Shown: in pieces, positions 9,531 through 41,081 of the stretch | Position numbering within the stretch: the first letter of the stretch is position 1 | Layout of the letters: the number at the start of each line of letters is the position of its first letter | Assembly (NCBI RefSeq): GCF_020297055.1 | Contig: NZ_JAIXCQ010000006.1 | Coordinates: forward strand, 124,001-188,000 | DNA from: Isoptericola luteus | Lineage (GTDB): Bacteria > Actinomycetota > Actinomycetes > Actinomycetales > Cellulomonadaceae | Length of the DNA stretch: 64,000 bases | Direction: 5' to 3' | Notes under the pieces: generated by a model | Told to the model about the DNA's origin: nothing | What the model saw: the letters and a program-made list of their open reading frames with translations, nothing else | Database searches by the model: none | Position numbers and translations under genes: made by a program

Positions 9531-12163
9531 GCCGTGGCCTCCGCCGTGACCTCCGCCGTGACCTCCGACGTGACCTCCGCAGCGTCCACCGCCGTGACCC
9601 GCGCAGGCCGCACGAGCTGGTTGAGCGAGCGCAGCACGCGCGGGTGCGTGAGCACGGCCGGGTCGAGCCGGGCGTCGTCGGGCACGGTCACGCGCAGCTC
9701 GACCCGCTCCCCGGGCAGCAGCGTGACGAGCATGGCATCCACCCTGGCGTCGGGGTGGGCCTTGTCGGCCAGCAGCGTGAGGTCGCGCACCAGGTGCCGC
9801 GCGGTCACGTCGACGACGTACCCGCCCTCGACGGGCCGCACCTCGGCCTCGACCAGCCCCGACCCGCTGTGAGCGGGCGTGACCAGCGCGCTGTCGCGCG
9901 GCTCGGCGAAGAACCACAGGCCCCGCACGCCGTCCAGCGTCGCCGTGACCAGCTCCGCGGCCGCCTCGCCCGGCGTGCCGACCTCGGTGGGCAGCACGAC
10001 GGTGGCTGCCGCGCGCGGCGCGACGTGCACGGGCACCGTCGCGTCCGCCACCGGGGCGCCGTCGAACGTGAGACGACGCAGCACGACGTCGCCCGCCCAG
10101 GCGGCGTCGGTGTCGTTGACGACGACGGCCGCGAGCGCGTCCGTGCCGTCCCGGCGCGCCTCGCCGCCGTCCGCGGCACGCGGCTGCAGCGTCACGAGCC
10201 GGTCGGCGTGCGCGTGGGCGAGCGCGTGCAGCAAGGGCTTGGGCCGCCCGTCGCCGTCGACGGCCGCCCAGGACGTCACCGGCCAGCAGTCGTTGAGCTG
10301 CCACACCACGGACCCCGTGCAGCGCGGCGACCAGGAGCGCAGGTGCTCCACGGCCGTACGCACCGCGGTGGCCTGGTTCCACGACATGGCCCAGTGCCAG
10401 TCCTCCATGTCGTCGGGCAGCGGCACGTGCGCCACCAGGCCGTCGGTGAGCTTGTCGTTGCCGCCCATCGCCTTCTGGTGCACCTGCATCCCCGGCGACT
10501 CCGGCGTCAACGGGTCGTCGCTGATCGACCGGGTCAGGGTCGACCAGGTCGGCGGGCCCTGCCAGCCGAACTCCGCCATGAACCGGGGCACGACGTCCCG
10601 GTAGTGCGGCCAGTCCTCCCGGTTCCACAGCTCCCACGAGTGCATCGACCCGTGGTCCGGGTCGTTGGGGAACACGTCCAGGCTGCCCGACCAGGGGCTG
10701 GACGGCGTGTACGGGCGGGTGCCGTCGAGCTCGGCCACGACGCCGGGCAGGAGGTCCGTGTAGTAGCCGAGCCCCCAGCTCCTGCCGTCCAGCCGCTTGA
10801 TCCAGCCCCACGTCTGGTGGCCCCAGATGTTCTCGTTGCTGCCGTTCCAGAGCACGAGGCTGGGGTGCGGGGCGAGCCGGGCGACGTTGTCCCGCGCCTC
10901 CGCCTCGACCTCCGCCCGCAGGGGCTCCTCCTCGCTGTACGCCGCGCAGGCGAAGGCGAAGTCCTGCCAGGTGAGGATGCCGCGCTCGTCGCACAGGTCG
11001 TAGAAGTCGTCGGCCTCGTAGACCCCGCCGCCCCACACCCGCAGCAGGTTCATGTTCGCCGCCTCGGCCTGGTCCAGCCGGGCCGCGAGGCGGCCCCGGT
11101 CCACGCGGGCCACGAAGGCGTCGTCCGGGATCCAGTTGGCGCCCTTGACCCACACCGGGCGGTCGTTGACGACGATCGTGAACGACGTGCCGTGGGCGTC
11201 CGGCACCATGTCCAGGCCCACGGACCTGAAACCGGTGCGGCCGCTCCAGGCGTCCAGGGCCGGACCCTGCGCGGCACCGGTCGCGTCGGTGCCCGACAGG
11301 CCCACCTCGACGGCGTACAGCGGCTGGTCGCCGTGCCCGCGCGGCCACCACAGCGCGACGTCCGGCACCTCCAGGTGCACGACGGCGGAGCTCTGCCCCG
11401 CAGGCACCGCGGCGCGGGCGGTGCGCTCGGCCCCGTGGCCGGACAGGCGCACCGTGACCTCGAGGGGGCCGGCGACGCCCGGGGCCCGCTCGACGTCGAC
11501 GGCGAGGTCGAGGAGCCCGCGGCCGGCGGCCACGTCCGCCGTGGCCAGCGGCCGCACCGACGCGAGACGTGCCGTGCTCCACGACTCGAGGCGCACGGCC
11601 CGCCAGATCCCGGCCGTCGCCGCGTCGATCCCCCAGTCCCAGCCGTAGTTGTACGCGGCCTTGCGGATCGCGTTGAACGGGTGGTGGTTGACCTGCGGCC
11701 GGTAGCCGAGCGCCAGGCTGCGGGCGTCGGCCTCGCGCACGGGCGACGCGAACCGCACCACGAGCTCGTTCTCGCCCGCACGCAGCAGGTCGGTGACGTC
11801 GAACCGGTAGCGCCGGTGCTGGTTCGCGGTGCGGCCCACCTCGGCGCCGTTGAGGGTGACGGTCGCGACCGTGTCCAGGCCGTCGAAGGCGAGGTCGTGC
11901 CAGTCCCCCGTGCCCGGACCTGACCGGAAGGTGGTGCGGTACTCCCAGTCGCTCTGCCCGATCCACTTGAGCAGCGCCTCGTGGTCGTCGAGGTACGGGT
12001 CGACGATCAGCCCGGCGGCGAGCAGGTCGGTGTGCACGCAGCCCGGCACCGTGGCCGGGACGTCGCGGCCGGCGAGGTGCTCGGGCACGGGGCCGCCCGC
12101 TCCCCGGACGGTCCACCCGTCGTGCAGGAGAAGCGTGTGACGGGCAGCAGCGATGGGGGCCAT
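9527..12163 (-). CDS. Beta-mannosidase, GH2
   Basis: 878 residues from the ATG at 12163, preceded by GGAGGAA at good spacing. Domains: jelly-roll sugar-binding domain, immunoglobulin-like domain, and TIM barrel with acid/base Glu in WNGSNEN (about residue 442) and nucleophile Glu in AEFGWQG (about residue 530). The motifs and length fit the beta-mannosidase branch of GH2 rather than LacZ. It releases mannose from the non-reducing end of mannooligosaccharides in the cytoplasm. The last 15 or so residues are a short degenerate repeat (VTSEVTAEVTAEATA). It is coupled to the alpha-galactosidase gene and lies 50 bp after the ROK gene. Confidence 0.92.
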   Translation of the reverse strand: MAPIAAARHTLLLHDGWTVRGAGGPVPEHLAGRDVPATVPGCVHTDLLAAGLIVDPYLDDHEALLKWIGQSDWEYRTTFRSGPGTGDWHDLAFDGLDTVATVTLNGAEVGRTANQHRRYRFDVTDLLRAGENELVVRFASPVREADARSLALGYRPQVNHHPFNAIRKAAYNYGWDWGIDAATAGIWRAVRLESWSTARLASVRPLATADVAAGRGLLDLAVDVERAPGVAGPLEVTVRLSGHGAERTARAAVPAGQSSAVVHLEVPDVALWWPRGHGDQPLYAVEVGLSGTDATGAAQGPALDAWSGRTGFRSVGLDMVPDAHGTSFTIVVNDRPVWVKGANWIPDDAFVARVDRGRLAARLDQAEAANMNLLRVWGGGVYEADDFYDLCDERGILTWQDFAFACAAYSEEEPLRAEVEAEARDNVARLAPHPSLVLWNGSNENIWGHQTWGWIKRLDGRSWGLGYYTDLLPGVVAELDGTRPYTPSSPWSGSLDVFPNDPDHGSMHSWELWNREDWPHYRDVVPRFMAEFGWQGPPTWSTLTRSISDDPLTPESPGMQVHQKAMGGNDKLTDGLVAHVPLPDDMEDWHWAMSWNQATAVRTAVEHLRSWSPRCTGSVVWQLNDCWPVTSWAAVDGDGRPKPLLHALAHAHADRLVTLQPRAADGGEARRDGTDALAAVVVNDTDAAWAGDVVLRRLTFDGAPVADATVPVHVAPRAAATVVLPTEVGTPGEAAAELVTATLDGVRGLWFFAEPRDSALVTPAHSGSGLVEAEVRPVEGGYVVDVTARHLVRDLTLLADKAHPDARVDAMLVTLLPGERVELRVTVPDDARLDPAVLTHPRVLRSLNQLVRPARVTAVDAAEVTSEVTAEVTAEATA

Positions 12164-12213
12164 ACGGGGTTCCTCCGGGAGCGGGCGGTCGTGGGTGGTC
12201 GTGGTCGAGCGGG

Positions 12214-13449
12214 TCAGGCGGGGCGTCCGACGGCGATCCGGACGCTGCCGCCGGCGGCGACGAGCTCGCCCTGGAGGACGAGGGCCGCCGCGCCGATCGC
12301 CGCCGCCTCGTTCGCGTGCGGTGAGATCACGACCTCGACGCCGTGGTCGCTGCGCGCGAAGAACGACGTGTCGAGCCGCTCCTGGACGACAGGCAGGTAC
12401 AGGGAGCCCGCGAGCGCCATCGCCGGACCGGTGAGCACCAGGCGGTCGATGTCCAGCACCTGTGCCAGCGTCTGGGCGGCGATCGCCACGTACCGGGCGG
12501 AGCGGTGCAGCATGCTGGCCGCGACCGCGTCCCCGCCGATCGCGGCCCGCGCGAGCACCGCGAACCGCTCCGACGTCGGGCGGCCGGGCCCGCCGAGGTC
12601 GAAGCCCGCGGCCTCCGCGGAGGCGACCACCACCTGCGGGCCGCCGAGCGCCTCCAGGCAGCCGCGCGCGCCGCACCAGCACTCGGGGCCGTCGGCCTGG
12701 ACGCACACGTGCCCGATCTCGCCGGCGTTCGAGCTGGCGCCGCGCAGCGGCACGCCGCGCACCACGGCTCCCGCCCCGATGCCGGTCGCGAGGTAGAGGG
12801 CGGCGAACGCACGACTGCCGTTCGCCCCGCCCGTCCAGTGCTCCCCCACCGCGGCGGCGGTCGCGTCGTTGTCGAGCAGGATCGGCAGGCCCGTGGCCTC
12901 CCCCAGCCGCTCGCCGAGCGGGAAGCCCGCCCACCGCCCCATGGCTGGGCCGGTGAGCACCGTCGGCGACGACCGGGCGAGCGGCCCCGGCGAGACGACG
13001 CCGAGCCCCAGGACCTTCTCCCAGCGGGCCCCGGCGCTCTCCACGAGCTCCCGCACGGTGCGGGCCATGCGCCGGACGACCGCGGCCGGCTCGGCGTCCG
13101 GCCGCGTCGCCCGCTTGAGCCGCGCCACCACGCCGCCGTCCAGGTTCACCAGGGCGTACGTGATGTCCGCCGAGTCCAGGTGGACCCCCAGGGCGTGCCG
13201 GCTCGCCGGCACCAGCTCCAGCAGGACCCGCGGCTTGCCCCCGGTCGACTCGCCGCGGCCCGCCTCCTGGACGAGCCCGTCGACGATGAGCCGGCGCACC
13301 GTCGTGGACACCGTGGCCCCGGTGAGCCCGGTGGCCGCAGTGATCTCGACCCGGCTGATCGACCCCGCGGCCCGGATCGCGTCGAGCACGAGGGCACGGC
13401 TCGACGGCGTCGCACCGGGGTGCCCGGGCGCCTGGATCACCTTCGTCAT
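12214..13449 (-). CDS. ROK family transcriptional repressor
   Basis: 411 residues. An N-terminal winged HTH (VLDAIRAAGSISRVEITAATGLTGATVSTTVRRL) is followed by a ROK sugar-kinase-like domain with the zinc motif GHVCVQADGPECWCGARGCLE. The HTH makes it a repressor (XylR/NagC type) rather than a glucokinase. It sits inside the mannooligosaccharide operon, between the transporter ATPase genes and the beta-mannosidase gene, so it probably represses this operon and responds to a mannoside or related sugar. A candidate operator overlaps the operon promoter at 19163-19187. Confidence 0.9.
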   Translation of the reverse strand: MTKVIQAPGHPGATPSSRALVLDAIRAAGSISRVEITAATGLTGATVSTTVRRLIVDGLVQEAGRGESTGGKPRVLLELVPASRHALGVHLDSADITYALVNLDGGVVARLKRATRPDAEPAAVVRRMARTVRELVESAGARWEKVLGLGVVSPGPLARSSPTVLTGPAMGRWAGFPLGERLGEATGLPILLDNDATAAAVGEHWTGGANGSRAFAALYLATGIGAGAVVRGVPLRGASSNAGEIGHVCVQADGPECWCGARGCLEALGGPQVVVASAEAAGFDLGGPGRPTSERFAVLARAAIGGDAVAASMLHRSARYVAIAAQTLAQVLDIDRLVLTGPAMALAGSLYLPVVQERLDTSFFARSDHGVEVVISPHANEAAAIGAAALVLQGELVAAGGSVRIAVGRPA

Positions 13450-35902: not shown

Positions 35903-36069
35903 CAGCGCTCCTCGCGGAAGTCGACGTGCTTGCGGATCACCGGGTCGTACTTCGTGAGCACGAGCCGGTCCGGGTCGTTGCGCCGGTTCTTGCGGGTCAC
36001 GTAGGCGAAGCCCGTGCCGGCCGCGGACCGGAGCCTGACGACCGGGCGCAGGTCGGTGCGGGACGCCAT
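35902..36069 (-). CDS. rpmG: 50S ribosomal protein L33, zinc-free paralogue
   Basis: 55 residues: [20 protein letters not shown], then [20 protein letters not shown] and [15 protein letters not shown]. No cysteine pairs are present, so it is the zinc-independent form. The ATG at 36069 overlaps the expected rpmB stop (TGATG), and its own stop overlaps rpsN in the same way. Confidence 0.95.
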
Positions 36070-36307
36070 CAGACCCTCCCCCCCCCCGCGCGAGGATCCT
36101 GGCGACCACGACGTCGATGCCCTGGCGGTCGACGGTCTTGATCCCCTTGGCGCTCACGCGCAGGGTGACCTTCCTTCCGAGCGAGGGCACCCAGTAGCTC
36201 TTCTTCTGGATGTTCGGGTCCCAGCGGCGCTTGGTGCGCACGTGGGAGTGCGAGACCGAGTGGCCGAAGCCCGGGGCCGTCCCGAGGACCTGGCAGCGGG
36301 CGGACAT
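36069..36307 (-). CDS. rpmB: 50S ribosomal protein L28, zinc-free paralogue, with G10 tract near the 3' end
   Basis: The first 75 residues ([20 protein letters not shown] ... [15 protein letters not shown]) are an intact L28 of the alternative type. A run of ten G (minus strand; 36078-36087) then shifts the frame so the expected stop at 36069-36071 is missed. With eight G the protein would be exactly 78 residues ending RGGRV, with a TGATG overlap to rpmG. As written, translation would run on through rpmG out of frame and into rpsN. A homopolymer sequencing error is the simplest explanation. First gene of the operon, 30 bp from a Zur box. Confidence 0.85.
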
Positions 36308-36336
36308 GGCGCCCCCTTCCTGAGTTGGCAAGTTGT

Positions 36337-36351
36337 TGAGAACGCTTCTCA
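36337..36351. promoter_or_regulatory. Zur box for the alternative ribosomal protein operon
   Basis: TGAGAACGCTTCTCA is a perfect 15-bp palindrome (6-bp arms, CGC centre) with the same core as the aztD box. It lies 30 bp upstream of the rpmB start codon on the minus strand, between two divergent genes. Confidence 0.8.
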
Positions 36352-36373
36352 GCAGGCTAGATTCTGGCACAAC

Positions 36374-36388
36374 AGATAATCATTATCA
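36374..36388. promoter_or_regulatory. Second Zur-like box, facing the mrf-like gene
   Basis: AGATAATCATTATCA is a near-perfect palindrome (6-bp arms GATAAT/ATTATC) that resembles the A/T-rich Zur consensus. It ends 16 bp before the GTG of the disrupted mrf-like gene. Two boxes about 37 bp apart would let one repressor control both divergent units. Confidence 0.65.
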
Positions 36389-36404
36389 ACAAGAAAGGGA
36401 TCCC

Positions 36405-36491
36405 GTGCCCGCAGCGCCCCACCCGAACCTGATCGCCCTCAGCATGCTCGTCACCGTCGACCCGGTCCTGCGCGAGTCGGCAGTGGCCGGG
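36405..36491 (+). pseudogene. 5' fragment of a CobW/Mrf-like GTPase gene, split by an IS21 element
   Basis: A GTG at 36405 with GAAAGGG upstream opens MPAAPHPNLIALSMLVTVDP, then VLRESAVAG. The frame is cut by the IS21 element at 36492. If the element and one copy of the 6-bp duplication are removed, it continues in frame as LVLGSPGTVAVRHDLLPGEG at 40592. The gene resembles the CobW-type GTPase (Mrf) encoded with zinc-free ribosomal proteins in mycobacteria, which recruits a hibernation factor to ribosomes in zinc starvation. The family assignment is from memory of its N-terminus and context. Confidence 0.7.
36486..36491. repeat. Left target-site duplication GCCGGG
   Basis: GCCGGG directly abuts the left inverted repeat and is matched by GCCGGG at 40586-40591 directly outside the right repeat. 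Six base pairs is within the usual 4-8 bp for IS21. Confidence 0.8.
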
Positions 36492-36541
36492 TGGCTATGA
36501 CAGGTTCGTTGAGGACCACCGTGACGGCTTGACTTGGGACC
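36492..36541 (+). repeat. Left terminal inverted repeat of the IS21 element
   Basis: About 50 bp beginning TGGCTATGACAGG. It contains two copies of GGACCACC, and matches the complement of 40536-40585 at about three quarters of positions with an identical GGACCACCTG block at the inner end. Repeated blocks at the ends are typical transposase-binding sites of IS21 elements. Confidence 0.8.
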
Positions 36542-36635
36542 ACCTGGGTCGGGCTGGTTGTGGTGTGACGGTCTGATTCGGACCCACCCCGAGCGTCTAC
36601 CCGGGTTGCGGCACCGATGCCGTGAGCCTGGATGG

Positions 36636-38315
36636 ATGGAGACGTCGCGAGTGGAGCTGTATGCGCTGATCAGGCGGGATGCGAGAGTCGAGGGTGCCTC
36701 GATCCGCGAGCTCGCGCGCCGGTACCGCGTGAGCCGGAACACCGTCAGGCAGGCGTTGCGGTCGGCGACTCCGCCGCCGAGGAAGACGCCGGTGCGAACG
36801 GCCCCGAGGTTGGAGCCGTTCAAGTCTGCGATCGACGGGATGCTCCGGACGGACTTGACCGCACCGAAGAAACAGCGTCATACGGCCCGCCGGGTTTGGG
36901 TGCGATTGGTCGAGGAGCACGACGCCGGCGATCTGTCGTACTCCACGGTGCGGGACTACGTCCGGAATCGTCGTCCGCAGATCCTGGCCGAGGCCGGTGT
37001 CCCGGTGGGTGAGGTGATGGTGCCGCAGGAGCATGCCTGGGGCGGCGAGGCGGAGGTCGACTTCGGCGAGGTCTACGTGATCCTCGCTGGGGTCAAGACG
37101 AAGTGCCACCTGTTCACCTTGCGCCTGTCCGCGTCGGGCAGGGCGGTGCACCGCGTCTATGCGTCCCAGGGGATGGAAGCTTTCCTCGAAGGCCACATCG
37201 CGGCGTTCACCGAACTCGGCGGCATCCCCACCCGCCACATCAGGTACGACAACCTCTCCTCCGCGGTCTCCGAGGTGCTCTACGGAACCGGCCGGCGCAG
37301 GACGGAGAACCAGCGCTGGACGGTGTTCCGCTCGCACTACGGGTTCGACGCGTTCTACTGCCGCCCGGGGATCGAGGGCGCACATGAGAAGGGCGGCGTC
37401 GAGGGCGAGGTCGGCCGGTTCCGACGGCAGCGGCTCACGCCTATGCCTGAGGTCGCCTCGTTGGACGAGCTGAACCAGCAGATCATCGCCTGGGACCTGA
37501 CCGACGACAATCGGCGAATCAGCGGGCGAGCTCGCACCGTGGGACAGGACTTCGCCGTCGAGCGCGAGCACCTGGCCGCCCTTCCCGATGAGGTCTTCGA
37601 CCCCGGCACCATCCTCACCCCCAGGGTCGACCGGTCCGCGCTCATCACCGTGCGCACGGCCCGCTACTCCGTGCCCGCTCACCTGATCGGGCGCAAGGTG
37701 CGTGTGAGCCTGCGCGCGTCCCACCTGGTCGTGTTCGACGGCCGCAAGATCGTCGCGACGCATCCGCGGGTGATCGCCAAGGGCGGGCAGTCCGTGCTGC
37801 TGGACCACTACCTCGAGGTCCTCAAGCACAAGCCCGGAGCCCTGCCCGGGGCGACGGCTCTCGCGGCTGCGCGGGCGGCTGGCACGTTCACCCCGGCGCA
37901 CGACGCGTTCTGGGCCGAGTCTCGCAAGGTCAACGGCGACGGGGCCGGGACCCGTGAGCTGATCGAGGTCCTGCTGCTGCACCGCCACCTGCCCGGCCAC
38001 GCCGTCGCGGCCGGTATCGAGGCCGCGCTCCAGGTCGGCGCGGTGAGCGCCGACGTCGTCGCACTCGAAGCACGCCGACTCACCGCCGGCCAGCCCTCAG
38101 GCGGCGGTGATGTCCCGGCGTCTGGGTCGGCCTTGGCGGGGAAGGTCGTCTCGCTGACCCAGCGTCGCCTCGCGGACCCGGCCGCGGTCATCGCCGGCCT
38201 GCCACCCGATGCTCGCCCGCTGCCGACCGTGACCGCCTACGACGACCTCCTCGCGGCCCGACGCACCACAACGAACGAGACCACGCCCACCGACCTGGAA
38301 GAAGGAACCGCATGA
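36636..38315 (+). CDS. istA: IS21-family transposase IstA
   Basis: 559 residues from the ATG at 36636 (the frame is open from 36534). An N-terminal HTH (SIRELARRYRVSRNTVRQAL) is followed by the DDE integrase core: Asp in EVDFGE (about residue 140), Asp in RYDNLSSAV (about 202) and Glu in HEKGGVEGEV (about 250-255). A C-terminal beta domain (SALITVRTARYSVPAHLIGRKVRV) is also present. Length and motifs are complete, so the transposase may be active. It overlaps istB by 4 bp (ATGA). Confidence 0.95.
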   Translation: METSRVELYALIRRDARVEGASIRELARRYRVSRNTVRQALRSATPPPRKTPVRTAPRLEPFKSAIDGMLRTDLTAPKKQRHTARRVWVRLVEEHDAGDLSYSTVRDYVRNRRPQILAEAGVPVGEVMVPQEHAWGGEAEVDFGEVYVILAGVKTKCHLFTLRLSASGRAVHRVYASQGMEAFLEGHIAAFTELGGIPTRHIRYDNLSSAVSEVLYGTGRRRTENQRWTVFRSHYGFDAFYCRPGIEGAHEKGGVEGEVGRFRRQRLTPMPEVASLDELNQQIIAWDLTDDNRRISGRARTVGQDFAVEREHLAALPDEVFDPGTILTPRVDRSALITVRTARYSVPAHLIGRKVRVSLRASHLVVFDGRKIVATHPRVIAKGGQSVLLDHYLEVLKHKPGALPGATALAAARAAGTFTPAHDAFWAESRKVNGDGAGTRELIEVLLLHRHLPGHAVAAGIEAALQVGAVSADVVALEARRLTAGQPSGGGDVPASGSALAGKVVSLTQRRLADPAAVIAGLPPDARPLPTVTAYDDLLAARRTTTNETTPTDLEEGTA

Positions 38316-39145
38316 CCACCACCACCGCAGCACCGACGTCGACAACCTCCCTTGGAACCTTTCCCGGTTCTCGGCGGCGGGGCCCGCTGACCGAGCAGGC
38401 CGCTGCCGCGGCGATCGACCAGGCCTGCCGTCGCCTGCGGCTGCCGACGATCCGGACCAACGTCGAGGCCACCACCGCTGCGGCGCAGCGCGACCAGATG
38501 TCCTACGAAGGGTTCCTCGCCGAGCTGCTGCTCGCGGAGTGCGACGACCGCGACCGCCGCTCCACCATCCGACGGGTCAAGGCGGCCGGGTTCCCGCGCA
38601 ACAAGTTCCTCGACGACTTCGACTTCGATGCCAACGGCGACATCAACCCGGCCACCATCGGGGCCTTGGCCACGTGTGACTGGGTGCGCCGCGGCGAGCC
38701 CCTGTGCCTCATCGGGGACTCCGGCACCGGCAAGAGCCACCTGCTCATCGCCCTGGGCACCGTCGCCGCAGAGCAGGGCTTCCGCGTGAAGTACACGCTC
38801 GCGACCAAGCTGGTCAACGAGCTCGTCGAGGCTGCCGACGAGATGCGCTTGGCGAAGACGATCGCCCGCTATGGCCGTGTCGACCTGCTGCTGATCGACG
38901 AGCTCGGATACATGGAGCTCGACCGCCGCGGCGCGGAACTTCTCTTCCAGGTTCTGACCGAACGCGAGGAGAAGAACTCCGTCGCGATCGCCTCGAACGA
39001 GTCCTTCTCCGGCTGGACCAAGACGTTCACCGACCCCAGGCTCTGTGCGGCGATCGTCGACCGCCTCACCTTCCACGGCACCATCATCGAGACCGGCACC
39101 GGCTCCTACCGCCTCGCCCACAGCCGACAGGCCCAGCAGGCCTAA
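38312..39145 (+). CDS. istB: IS21-family ATPase helper IstB
   Basis: 277 residues. A DnaC-like AAA+ domain has Walker A GDSGTGKSHLL, Walker B VDLLLIDELGYM and sensor motif VAIASNESFSGW. IstB loads IstA on target DNA. The N-terminal 40 residues are a low-complexity Thr/Ala leader. It is intact and coupled to istA. Confidence 0.95.
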   Translation: MTTTTAAPTSTTSLGTFPGSRRRGPLTEQAAAAAIDQACRRLRLPTIRTNVEATTAAAQRDQMSYEGFLAELLLAECDDRDRRSTIRRVKAAGFPRNKFLDDFDFDANGDINPATIGALATCDWVRRGEPLCLIGDSGTGKSHLLIALGTVAAEQGFRVKYTLATKLVNELVEAADEMRLAKTIARYGRVDLLLIDELGYMELDRRGAELLFQVLTEREEKNSVAIASNESFSGWTKTFTDPRLCAAIVDRLTFHGTIIETGTGSYRLAHSRQAQQA

Positions 39146-39176
39146 GTAGCCCGATTCCTTGCCTTCGTGAGGACAA

Positions 39177-39212
39177 CAGTGCCTCGTCCGTCAGATGACG
39201 GACGAGGCACTG
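39177..39212 (+). terminator. Hairpin terminator after istB
   Basis: A perfect 16-bp stem (CAGTGCCTCGTCCGTC and complement) encloses AGAT, 31 bp after the istB stop. It also faces the 3' end of the convergent passenger gene, so it can stop both transcripts. Confidence 0.8.
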
Positions 39213-39237
39213 TCTGCGCATGCTGGGGCGAGAGCGC

Positions 39238-39465
39238 TCAGCCGCGTCGGATCCAGTCCGCCTGCCAGGAGTAGTCGCCGTGCGCCACCTCGGAAACCGT
39301 GAGGGTGACCTCCTCGCCCGGCACCAACTCACGGAACGCTCCGTCCGGTGCGTCGATCGCCGCGAACAGCGCCCAGACCGCCCGGCCATCGGCGAGGCGC
39401 ACCGCCCCGACGCCCTGTTCCTCGTCCCACGCGGTGACCACACCGCGGAATCGCTCCGATCCCAC
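39238..39465 (-). CDS. Cold-shock-like small protein, IS passenger
   Basis: 75 residues from the GTG at 39465, after GGAGGAGG. RGVVTAWDEEQGVGAVRLAD, then FAAIDAPDG and LVPGEEVTLTVSEVAHGDYS, resembles the cold-shock/S1-like beta-barrel, but the RNP-1 and RNP-2 motifs are degenerate. It lies inside the IS21 element, 17 bp after the secreted-protein gene on the same strand. A nucleic-acid-binding role is possible but not shown. Confidence 0.65.
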   Translation of the reverse strand: MGSERFRGVVTAWDEEQGVGAVRLADGRAVWALFAAIDAPDGAFRELVPGEEVTLTVSEVAHGDYSWQADWIRRG

Positions 39466-39482
39466 GCGACCTCCTCCGTTTG

Positions 39483-40394
39483 TCACTTGCGAGGGTAAAT
39501 CGTCGTCGTGACCGTCAGCGCGCCAGGGAGAATCTTGCCCTTGCACTTCACCTCGAACGTGATGAGGTCGGAGGACTTGACCGTCGAGGGCACCTTCACC
39601 GGCTTGAACGAGCCGTGGAAGAGGTAGGACTTGGGCACATTCTTGTGCGGTGCGTTCATGCCCTGCTTCTTGCCGTTCAGCCACCACTTCATGCCACGCT
39701 CATTCACCTTCCCCACGATCTGACGCTGAAGCGACGGCTGGATCTTCAGCCCCCAAACGACGTTCTTGTACTTGGGGCAGTTGTTCTGGAACGTGATCGT
39801 CATGTTCGCATCCCAGAACGACTTCGCCTGCTTGCACTTCAGCGTCTTGTTTGTGGCCGCGCGGAGCACACCGCGAGAAGCGGCATCGTCACGCACCGCG
39901 GCCACCTGCTCATCCGTCGGGAGCCCCGGCACCGCTTCCGTGACCGCCTGCTCCAGATTCGCCGCCACCGCAGGGACGACCGCGACATCCTCGGGACCCG
40001 CGTCGACGAGGTCGGCAATCTCCTCCGCAGCCTCCTCGCGATCCTGGGGCTCCAGAGCGTCCAGGTTCACAACCAGCGAGGACGCCACATCGGACGACTC
40101 CGCGGCGGGAAGGTCCACCGTCGCCACCTGCGCGAGCGGGTCGGAGAACTCCTCACCGAGTGGAGGCGCTACCGCGACAGCCGCCACCTCCTCATCGCTC
40201 GCGACTGCGGTAGGCGTGTCGAGCTCGTCCGCCAGCACCGCCTCCCACTCCGCCGACGTGAGGCCCCCATGTTCCCCACCGCCCGTGCCGCTATCGGCAG
40301 TCGCCGCAACTGCCGCGGGTGCGACAAGTCCGCAGAGGGTTAGCGTTGCGATTCCTGCAATCACATTGCGCTTCCTCGAGGATCTGTGTTTCAC
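39483..40394 (-). CDS. Secreted protein with acidic pro-region and basic C-terminal domain, IS passenger
   Basis: 303 residues. A Sec signal peptide (MKHRSSRKRNVIAGIATLTL, then CGLVAPAAVAA) should cleave after AVA. Residues about 33-175 are acidic and helical (many Asp/Glu, Ala), with EEAAEEIADLVDAGPEDVA. Residues about 180-303 are strongly basic, rich in Lys and Trp, with four Cys (TLKCKQAK, NNCPKYK, EVKCKGK) and FWDANMTITFQNN. The two-part charge pattern looks like a proprotein, and the lower GC of the gene suggests transfer. I do not recognise the family; a secreted effector or toxin is one guess. Confidence 0.7.
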   Translation of the reverse strand: MKHRSSRKRNVIAGIATLTLCGLVAPAAVAATADSGTGGGEHGGLTSAEWEAVLADELDTPTAVASDEEVAAVAVAPPLGEEFSDPLAQVATVDLPAAESSDVASSLVVNLDALEPQDREEAAEEIADLVDAGPEDVAVVPAVAANLEQAVTEAVPGLPTDEQVAAVRDDAASRGVLRAATNKTLKCKQAKSFWDANMTITFQNNCPKYKNVVWGLKIQPSLQRQIVGKVNERGMKWWLNGKKQGMNAPHKNVPKSYLFHGSFKPVKVPSTVKSSDLITFEVKCKGKILPGALTVTTTIYPRK

Positions 40395-40535
40395 GTTCGC
40401 TTCCTTTCACTGATGGTGCGCGAGAAGTTACGCACAGCGACACCGGAAGCGCAACGCCGAACTAGATGATTCAACGGTCAATAATTCAAAGTAGACCTAC
40501 CTGGGCGCGACCCTGCGTCCACGCGTGGGACAGGT

Positions 40536-40585
40536 GGTCCCGTTTCAAGCCGTCATGGTGGTCCACATTCGGGTTGACACAGCCA
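40536..40585 (-). repeat. Right terminal inverted repeat of the IS21 element
   Basis: On the minus strand this reads TGGCTGTGTCAACCC, then TGTGGACCACCATGACGGC and GGGACCACCTG, matching the left end in the same order and spacing. It ends directly at the GCCGGG duplication. Confidence 0.8.
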
Positions 40586-40591
40586 GCCGGG
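40586..40591. repeat. Right target-site duplication GCCGGG
   Basis: GCCGGG follows the right inverted repeat and repeats 36486-36491. Reading from here in the phase of the 5' fragment gives AGLVLGSPGTVAVRH, so the duplication joins the two halves of the split gene. Confidence 0.8.
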
Positions 40592-41081
40592 CTCGTCCTC
40601 GGCTCCCCCGGGACTGTCGCCGTCCGCCACGACCTGCTGCCCGGCGAGGGCGCGCTGCGCCGGGTCGTCGTCGACGCGCTCGCCGCCCAGCTCGAACAGG
40701 CCGACCTGGTGGTGACCACCGGTGGCTCGCCGACGGGCTCCGGGCTCGTCGACCGCGTGCGGGGCACCGCCACGCGCCGCAGCGACGGGATGCATCGCGA
40801 ACCGCCCCGACTCAGCCTGCCTGTGGGACTCCGCAGGCGGTCAGACCTGCATCGCCGACCTCGGGGGCTGGCAGGAGGCCGCGCCCGGCGTCGAGCCGCG
40901 CACCCGGATCCACGTCGTGGGCGCCGGCGACCCGCACGCCGCGCGCCGCCTGCGGCGCCGCCCCCGCGAGGCGTTCACCGCCGCCCTGACCACCGGCGAC
41001 GAGACGGCCGACGGGGGCCTGCACTGGCTCGGCCGTGCGGACGTGCTCGCACCGTGGCTGGGTGACCGCACACCGGCCTGA
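40586..41081 (+). pseudogene. 3' remnant of the CobW/Mrf-like GTPase gene
   Basis: Beginning in the phase of the 5' fragment, it reads AGLVLGSPGTVAVRHDLLPG, then GALRRVVVDALAAQLEQADL and VVTTGGSPTGSGLVDRVRG. A frameshift follows near 40800, after which another frame gives DSACLWDSAGGQTCIADLGG and ends ADVLAPWLGDRTPA at 41081. The middle of a CobW-type protein, including the conserved Cys region, appears to be missing between VVVDA and LAAQ. The gene is therefore broken by the insertion, a deletion and a frameshift. A hairpin terminator follows. Confidence 0.7.

Follow-up and report, generated by a model that had tools for sequence, protein, structure and literature searches.

Insertion sequences (ISs) of the IS21 family are commonly thought of as parasites made of istAB only; members are usually described as elements of ∼ 2–2.5 kb holding istA and istB alone, and they duplicate 4–8 bp of their target. 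The available part of a Ralstonia survey lists IS21-family sizes of 1.7–1.8 kb (PMC7371123). For other families, the available parts of the literature describe transporter ISs (tIS), in which members of IS481 (ISArsp12, ISPfr21), ISL3 (ISPst2), ISNCY (ISArsp9, ISArsp14, ISArsp16), IS6 (ISDsp3), IS1 and IS1595 carry passenger genes (PMC6305408, PMC7986276, PMC8496243, PMC9330008). The locus analysed here lies in a 64 000-nucleotide stretch of the Isoptericola luteus genome (contig NZ_JAIXCQ010000006.1, positions 124,001–188,000; hereafter ‘the window’), where an IS21 element has two further genes between istB and its right end. The feature is very probably a transporter-type IS21 element, comprising a 2.6-kb engine, an open slot and a right end of ∼ 50 bp. 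Moreover, most delimited members of a related actinobacterial IS21 lineage are built in the same way, with other cargo in the slot.

Window positions 36492–40585 form a single transposed unit, with paired ends, a 6-bp target duplication and uninterrupted istA and istB genes (Table 1). A reading made earlier from the sequence alone had proposed an IS21 element bounded by imperfect 50-bp inverted repeats and a GCCGGG duplication, and these proposals are borne out. Ungapped alignment of 36492–36541 with the complement of 40536–40585 gives 36 identical positions of 50; the gapped score is 23, compared with a maximum of 13 among 20,000 random 50-mer pairs drawn from 36000–41000, and an inner repeat pair (36510–36546 and 40531–40567) is 86% complementary. 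With 0 or 1 mismatch allowed, the left-end motif is present on the window's + strand only at 36492 and the right-end motif only at 40585, and GCCGGG stands at both borders. No second right-end motif was found at 39100–41000 with up to 2 mismatches allowed. At the left end another related repeat, judged by eye, seems to extend to ∼ 36600.

Table 1. Features of the Isoptericola luteus IS21 element and its insertion site (window coordinates).
Feature	Coordinates	Strand	Basis or remark
Host gene, CobW-type GTPase, GTG start at 36405, first 29 codons	36405..36491	+	congener comparison
Target-site duplication GCCGGG, left copy	36486..36491	none	flank comparison
Left end: terminal motif TGGCTATGACAG and inner repeat	36492..36546	+	motif and repeat analysis
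istA, IS21 transposase, 559 aa, uninterrupted, ATG at 36636	36636..38315	+	NF033546
istB, helper ATPase, 277 aa, 4-bp overlap with istA (ATGA)	38312..39145	+	NF038214, PF01695
Perfect 18-bp hairpin separating istAB from the passenger genes that converge on it	39176..39213	none	
Passenger gene 2, 75 aa, cold-shock-domain-like, GTG start preceded by GGAGGAGG	39238..39465	-	
Passenger gene 1, 303 aa, N-terminal signal-like segment	39483..40394	-	signal: authors' sequence reading
Right end, ∼ 55 bp, two repeats; the portion right of the slot common to relatives	40531..40585	-	
Target-site duplication GCCGGG, right copy	40586..40591	none	flank comparison
Host gene remainder, decayed, frameshifted	40592..41081	+	comparison with L091

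Both transposition proteins pass curated IS21 models. IstA scored 249 bits against the NCBIfam transposase model NF033546 (cut-off 160) and also exceeded the cut-off of PF22483, with rve and helix–turn–helix matches below theirs. IstB, an AAA+ helper ATPase encoded downstream of istA, scored 255 bits against NF038214 (cut-off 200) and matched PF01695 with E = 8.9e-65; relatives of solved structure are 8q3w, 8q4d and 5bq5. A PADLOC match of IstB to DrmD was set aside, as in our reading it is probably due to the common ATPase fold. Together with imperfect terminal inverted repeats containing multiple internal repeats and the short duplication, these proteins identify the element as IS21.

The joined flanks align across the insertion point in 11 of 17 congeners (L091, L092 and L094–L102; L numbers denote loci), in which the site is unbroken. 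The remaining six gave no alignment across it, the orthologue in L093 being split by contig ends and the other five giving short matches only. One result named beforehand as counter-evidence, the two passengers at this place in relatives lacking istAB, was not obtained: the secreted-looking passenger matched none of the 15 congener genomes searched.

In order to compare the element with its relatives, 117 IstB-bearing loci were assembled: the best 80 of at least 530 IstB relatives in a species-genome collection, 28 regions from the order, 8 of 133 plasmid records having a match, and the window. An element counted as delimited when both of its end motifs were located, contig ends taking their place for L012, L013, L017 and L039; motif-free calling of ends worked at many loci and also gave chance pairs, and motif-based calling was used instead. 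In all, 65 loci were delimited: 43 from the first set, the window among them, and 22 of the 36 that made up the second. Of these elements, 42 have a duplication of at least 5 bp, or 41 after near-duplicates were removed, the window's included; their length is 5–9 bp, and exactly 6 bp in 32 of the 41. When left ends were paired with the right ends of other loci as a control (second set only), duplications of at least 5 bp arose in 5 of 990 pairings; with several candidate pairs per locus, the chance of such a duplication is a few percent per locus at most.

Measured from the istB stop, the right end lies 648–6416 bp away in 36 of the 41 non-redundant elements, 306–334 bp in 2 and 64–85 bp in 3; that is, 38 have more than 300 bp after istB. 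The expectation of the sequence-only reading that IS21 elements normally carry only istA and istB therefore fails for the delimited members of this lineage. Three elements with duplications (L080, L196 and L032) end directly after istB, which shows that the slot can be empty; L054 and L201 are also empty by motif and have no duplication. Copies of this kind had been named beforehand as evidence that would count against the passengers belonging to the element; they exist, but only as other elements and not as the window's. We know of nothing that would make an empty element more difficult to delimit than a loaded one.

Close istAB relatives were found in 25 of 396 genomes of the order, the element's own included. 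None of the other 24 is labelled with the window's family, which suggests that the window element was acquired from afar. In a 66-row tree of istA plus istB, built by a quick method with SH-aLRT as its sole support measure, the window element forms a long branch within a 55-row clade with support of 100. This tree requires at least 30 changes of cargo label, a figure that mainly restates diversity because the labels are mostly unique by construction, and at least 3 changes between loaded and empty. Four more distant elements with different end motifs (L071, L074, L078 and L083) have their own 6-bp duplications 0.6–2.2 kb past istB, and from these cargo may extend beyond this lineage.

Elements whose bodies (istA to istB) are 85–97% identical often have unrelated cargo or none. 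Pairs with different cargo include L169/L170 (97%, no duplication in either), L030/L044 (95%), L044/L050 (94%), L173/L203 (90%) and L051/L172 (88%), the bodies of L030, L044 and L050 all being 94–95% identical; pairs of one empty and one loaded element include L032 (empty)/L037 (94%) and L080 (empty)/L089 (92%). Across 22 pairs with differing cargo, homology stops 0–23 bp past the istB stop in 21 and at 42 bp in one weak case, and it resumes 50–72 bp before the right end in 16. The shared right-end part consists of two repeats of ∼ 20 bp each, and the junction sequences of the 22 pairs contain no common site. The hairpin that follows istB in the window was weighed as a site of cargo recombination common to the elements and rejected: no similar hairpin exists in the other 42 first-set elements, in which the best hairpin within 160 bp of istB scores 10 or less. 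Its position between converging genes makes it a probable two-way terminator.

Loaded elements also recur as whole units. Near-identical loaded elements with unrelated flanks are seen in L014/L015 (99.9% body identity, 0.33-kb cargo), L016/L019 (one on a plasmid, the other on a genome contig) and L175/L199; L076 and L088 have both flanks in common and were counted as one insertion. Several contigs equal an element, namely L012, L013 (3065 bp), L017 (7183 of 7184 bp), L064 (4242 of 4243 bp) and apparently L039, and look as collapsed repeats would. A duplicated 124-bp right end in L019 (12278–12402) was examined as a tandem remnant and is more probably an assembly overlap; 123 bp of it recurs at 7 other listed places in that assembly, 4 of them at contig starts.

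The cargo of the delimited elements is diverse, as predicted from Pfam, plasmid annotation or, where stated, sequence. L016 (the same element in L017 and L019) carries mercury resistance with merA-type, merB and merR genes, and merA-type genes occur alone or with merR in L076, L088, L085 and L200, and in L175 and L199; mercury-resistance cargo is found in both orientations relative to istAB. Such mercury-resistance-type genes thus stand on at least three IS21 bodies (L016/L017/L019/L182; L076/L085/L088/L200; L175/L199). Other metal-related cargo comprises cation-efflux transporters (L025, L051 and, by sequence and similarity, L172), ArsA-like and arsenite-transporter-like genes read from sequence (L179), and a group made up of a heavy-metal P-type ATPase, a multicopper oxidase and a sensor kinase (L170, for which no duplication was found). 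The remaining predictions include ECF sigma factors (L020, L031), acetyltransferases (L044, L050, L197), glyoxalase-fold proteins (L028, L050), a monooxygenase-SDR-regulator group (L027), GGDEF (L065), GAF-ANTAR (L052) and MscL (L173) proteins, and a Trp/Tyr-type tRNA synthetase (L061, no duplication). L022, L037, L042 and L063 carry secreted-looking proteins of no family, the signal being our own reading, and L082 carries one with DUF2599. A related secreted-looking protein is found in a different element, L185 (L082 7032–8024; L185 5544–6737, oriented), and each of the two has a small membrane- or lipoprotein-like neighbour.

In the window element both passengers lie on the - strand between istB and the right end, converging on istAB, and neither matches a transposition family in profile searches. 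Passenger gene 1 ends 17 bp upstream of passenger gene 2, and the two probably form an operon; presumably they are expressed. The predicted pair is a secreted-looking protein with a small nucleic-acid-binding-like partner. The secreted-looking protein has no family in Pfam, NCBIfam, PHROGs or PADLOC and no match in the plasmid and viral collections, and an AlphaFold model of it alone has a mean pLDDT of 40.9, too low for use. The small protein had been called cold-shock-like beforehand; its resemblance to Pfam CSD (E = 0.033) and NCBIfam CspE (E = 0.0016) is weak, both matches lying below curated cut-offs. The window cargo contained no recognised recombinase gene, no istA or istB piece and no repeat that stood out as bounding the pair.

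Relatives of the secreted passenger are few. It matched 4 of 150 genomes of the family, its own included, the G128 match being weak and confined to the N-terminal part (residues 3–103, within a 582-aa frame), and 2 of 396 genomes of the order at E 1e-8 or better, its own included. In genome G085 (L007/L112) a 38% relative of the secreted protein is followed, in the same order, by a 36% relative of the small protein; this pair (L112 6809–8705) adjoins a serine resolvase (PF00239), and no istA or istB match lies within the 18 kb read. In G245 (L111) an HTH_3-like gene and a weak phage-integrase match lie ∼ 1.3 kb and 1.7 kb, respectively, from a relative of the C-terminal part of the secreted protein, and G002 (L113) holds a short piece. 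As judged from these relatives, the passenger pair is a rare module present in at least one other mobile-looking setting. The co-occurrence of the pair in a second context suggests that the window passengers act together. Kinship between them and the cargo proteins of other elements was tested for, and none was found.

Taken together, these data are consistent with a model in which IstA and IstB would transpose the entire stretch from the left end (36492) to the right end (40585) together, duplicating 6 bp of target; IstAB would thus mobilise the cargo-bearing form. The interval from the istB stop to the last ∼ 50 bp would act as a free slot for varied DNA of up to at least 6.4 kb, occupied in the window by the opposite-strand two-gene module of a secreted-looking protein and its small CSD-like partner. 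Exchange of cargo would come about through insertions and deletions within this interval, with neighbouring IS copies playing a part. Two loci hold possible traces of such events. In L202 (5150–14211) ∼ 5.2 kb of other DNA is flanked by two pieces of a segment that L030 and L169 also have, an arrangement suggesting that new cargo entered an older load. In L049 (∼ 12124–12405) a 28-residue istB 3′ fragment lies ∼ 200 bp inside the right end, the trace to be expected if a second IS copy supplied that end. Insertion plus deletion, sometimes via a neighbouring IS copy, fits these traces, and a specific capture mechanism is possible but unsupported. It is unlikely that the lineage is an evolved gene-capture platform, in which IstAB and the 50-bp right end would actively promote slot replacement and so sample host genes.

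Several observations weigh against the transporter-type reading. The window element has a single full copy in its own genome, so that no recent transposition is shown for it, and no relative carrying the same passengers on an IS21 element was found. Some close pairs retain the same cargo (L039/L047, L076/L085/L200 and L016/L182), and 6 of the 22 pairs with differing cargo break the 50–72-bp rule at the right end. Three of these six have longer stretches of cargo in common next to the right end, 563 bp in L030/L169 and ∼ 246 bp in each of L030/L202 and L169/L202; under strict extension L173/L203 share 28 bp, L010/L014 12 bp and L176/L193 10 bp, the right end called for L176 being doubtful. The sample was picked by similarity to the window istA and istB, so the proportion with cargo applies to this lineage only; 52 of the 117 IstB loci were not delimited, a number of these being contig fragments and others remoter elements whose ends differ. 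Among the 65 that were delimited, 23 lack a duplication of at least 5 bp.

The passengers might instead be ordinary host DNA, the true right end lying just after istB and the distal motif being a chance match or a solo end. That three relatives with duplications do end 64–85 bp after istB is in keeping with this, but the sole + strand right-end motif, at 40585, bears the matching 6-bp duplication, the secreted passenger was not found in the 15 congeners searched and the site is unbroken in 11 of 17. The duplication and the empty sites refute this explanation unless both are coincidences, and its probability is close to nil. A nested arrangement, with the passenger pair as its own resolvase- or integrase-type cassette that inserted itself into a cargo-free IS21 element and hitch-hikes there, would account for the same pair adjoining a serine resolvase in L007/L112, for the relative near HTH_3-like and weak integrase matches in L111, and for the insertion of ∼ 5.2 kb into an older cargo segment in L202. 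Against it, the window cargo contains neither a recognised recombinase nor an evident bounding repeat, and the 22 pairs lack a common junction site and, irrespective of cargo, have their breaks close to the istB stop and in most cases at the repeats of the right end; this arrangement is thus judged improbable.

A decayed composite deserves more weight and is still doubtful. Here, two IS21 copies would once have flanked the genes, with the left istAB and the right end of the right copy surviving deletions. The istB fragment in L049 is of the kind that such decay would leave, and the available part of one source describes IS21 elements forming tandem dimers and ISPve1, of the IS21 family, causing adjacent deletions (PMC9330008). 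However, of the delimited elements L049 alone showed such a remnant, and none is present in the window element. Moreover, decay of a composite would explain how the element arose and would not make it another kind of object today.

The disrupted host gene, as judged from its congener orthologue in L091, which matches PF02492 (cobW) and PF07683 (CobW_C), is a remnant of a CobW-type GTPase gene; an insertion into a GTPase gene, as proposed beforehand, is thereby upheld, and a role in zinc response may be supposed from the context. The further proposal that removal of the element restores the host frame holds at the junction, where the frame without the element and one duplication copy continues as LVLGSPGTVAVRH, but not over the whole gene. 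Compared with L091, the window gene is without ∼ 0.33 kb and, further downstream, ∼ 0.23 kb, the second not a multiple of three, and it is therefore a pseudogene for additional reasons too. Upstream of it, beside alternative ribosomal-protein-like genes, a perfect palindrome (GATAATCATTATC, 36375–36387) resembles a Zur-type box. The nearby frame for an L28-like ribosomal protein (36069–36310, - strand) appears, in our reading, to extend into a C-run near 36077, by which the C-terminus of the protein is changed.

Should cargo be present in most copies of this actinobacterial lineage, mobile genes are overlooked wherever annotation ends at istB, among them genes for resistance to mercury, arsenic and other metals as well as many single genes without a known use. 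The series of near-identical elements that differ in cargo also makes the question of how a simple IS becomes a transposon directly testable. In the available parts of the literature on tIS, no IS21 member and no near-identical IS series with exchanged cargo is reported, and no IS21 element with passenger genes is described; curated ISfinder and TnPedia entries lay outside this scope, and novelty is therefore provisional.

As in composite transposons of IS21, host genes would be moved between IS ends; in contrast to these, no second IS copy was found to flank the cargo, the window element being the single copy in its genome with no istA or istB piece in its cargo, and L049 alone has an istB fragment. 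A gene-capture platform, were the lineage one, would sample host genes much like integrons do cassettes, only with no cassette site. The window element shares with tIS, as these are described in the accessible texts, the presence of non-transposition passenger genes within the two ends of one IS, and a single duplication brackets the whole; the transposase families of described tIS differ from its IS21 type. With the IS21 family itself (IS21, IS5376) it has in common the transposase and helper families, the istA–istB overlap, TG...CA ends with internal repeats and short duplications, and it differs in that, in its lineage, cargo is usually present in the slot that follows istB.

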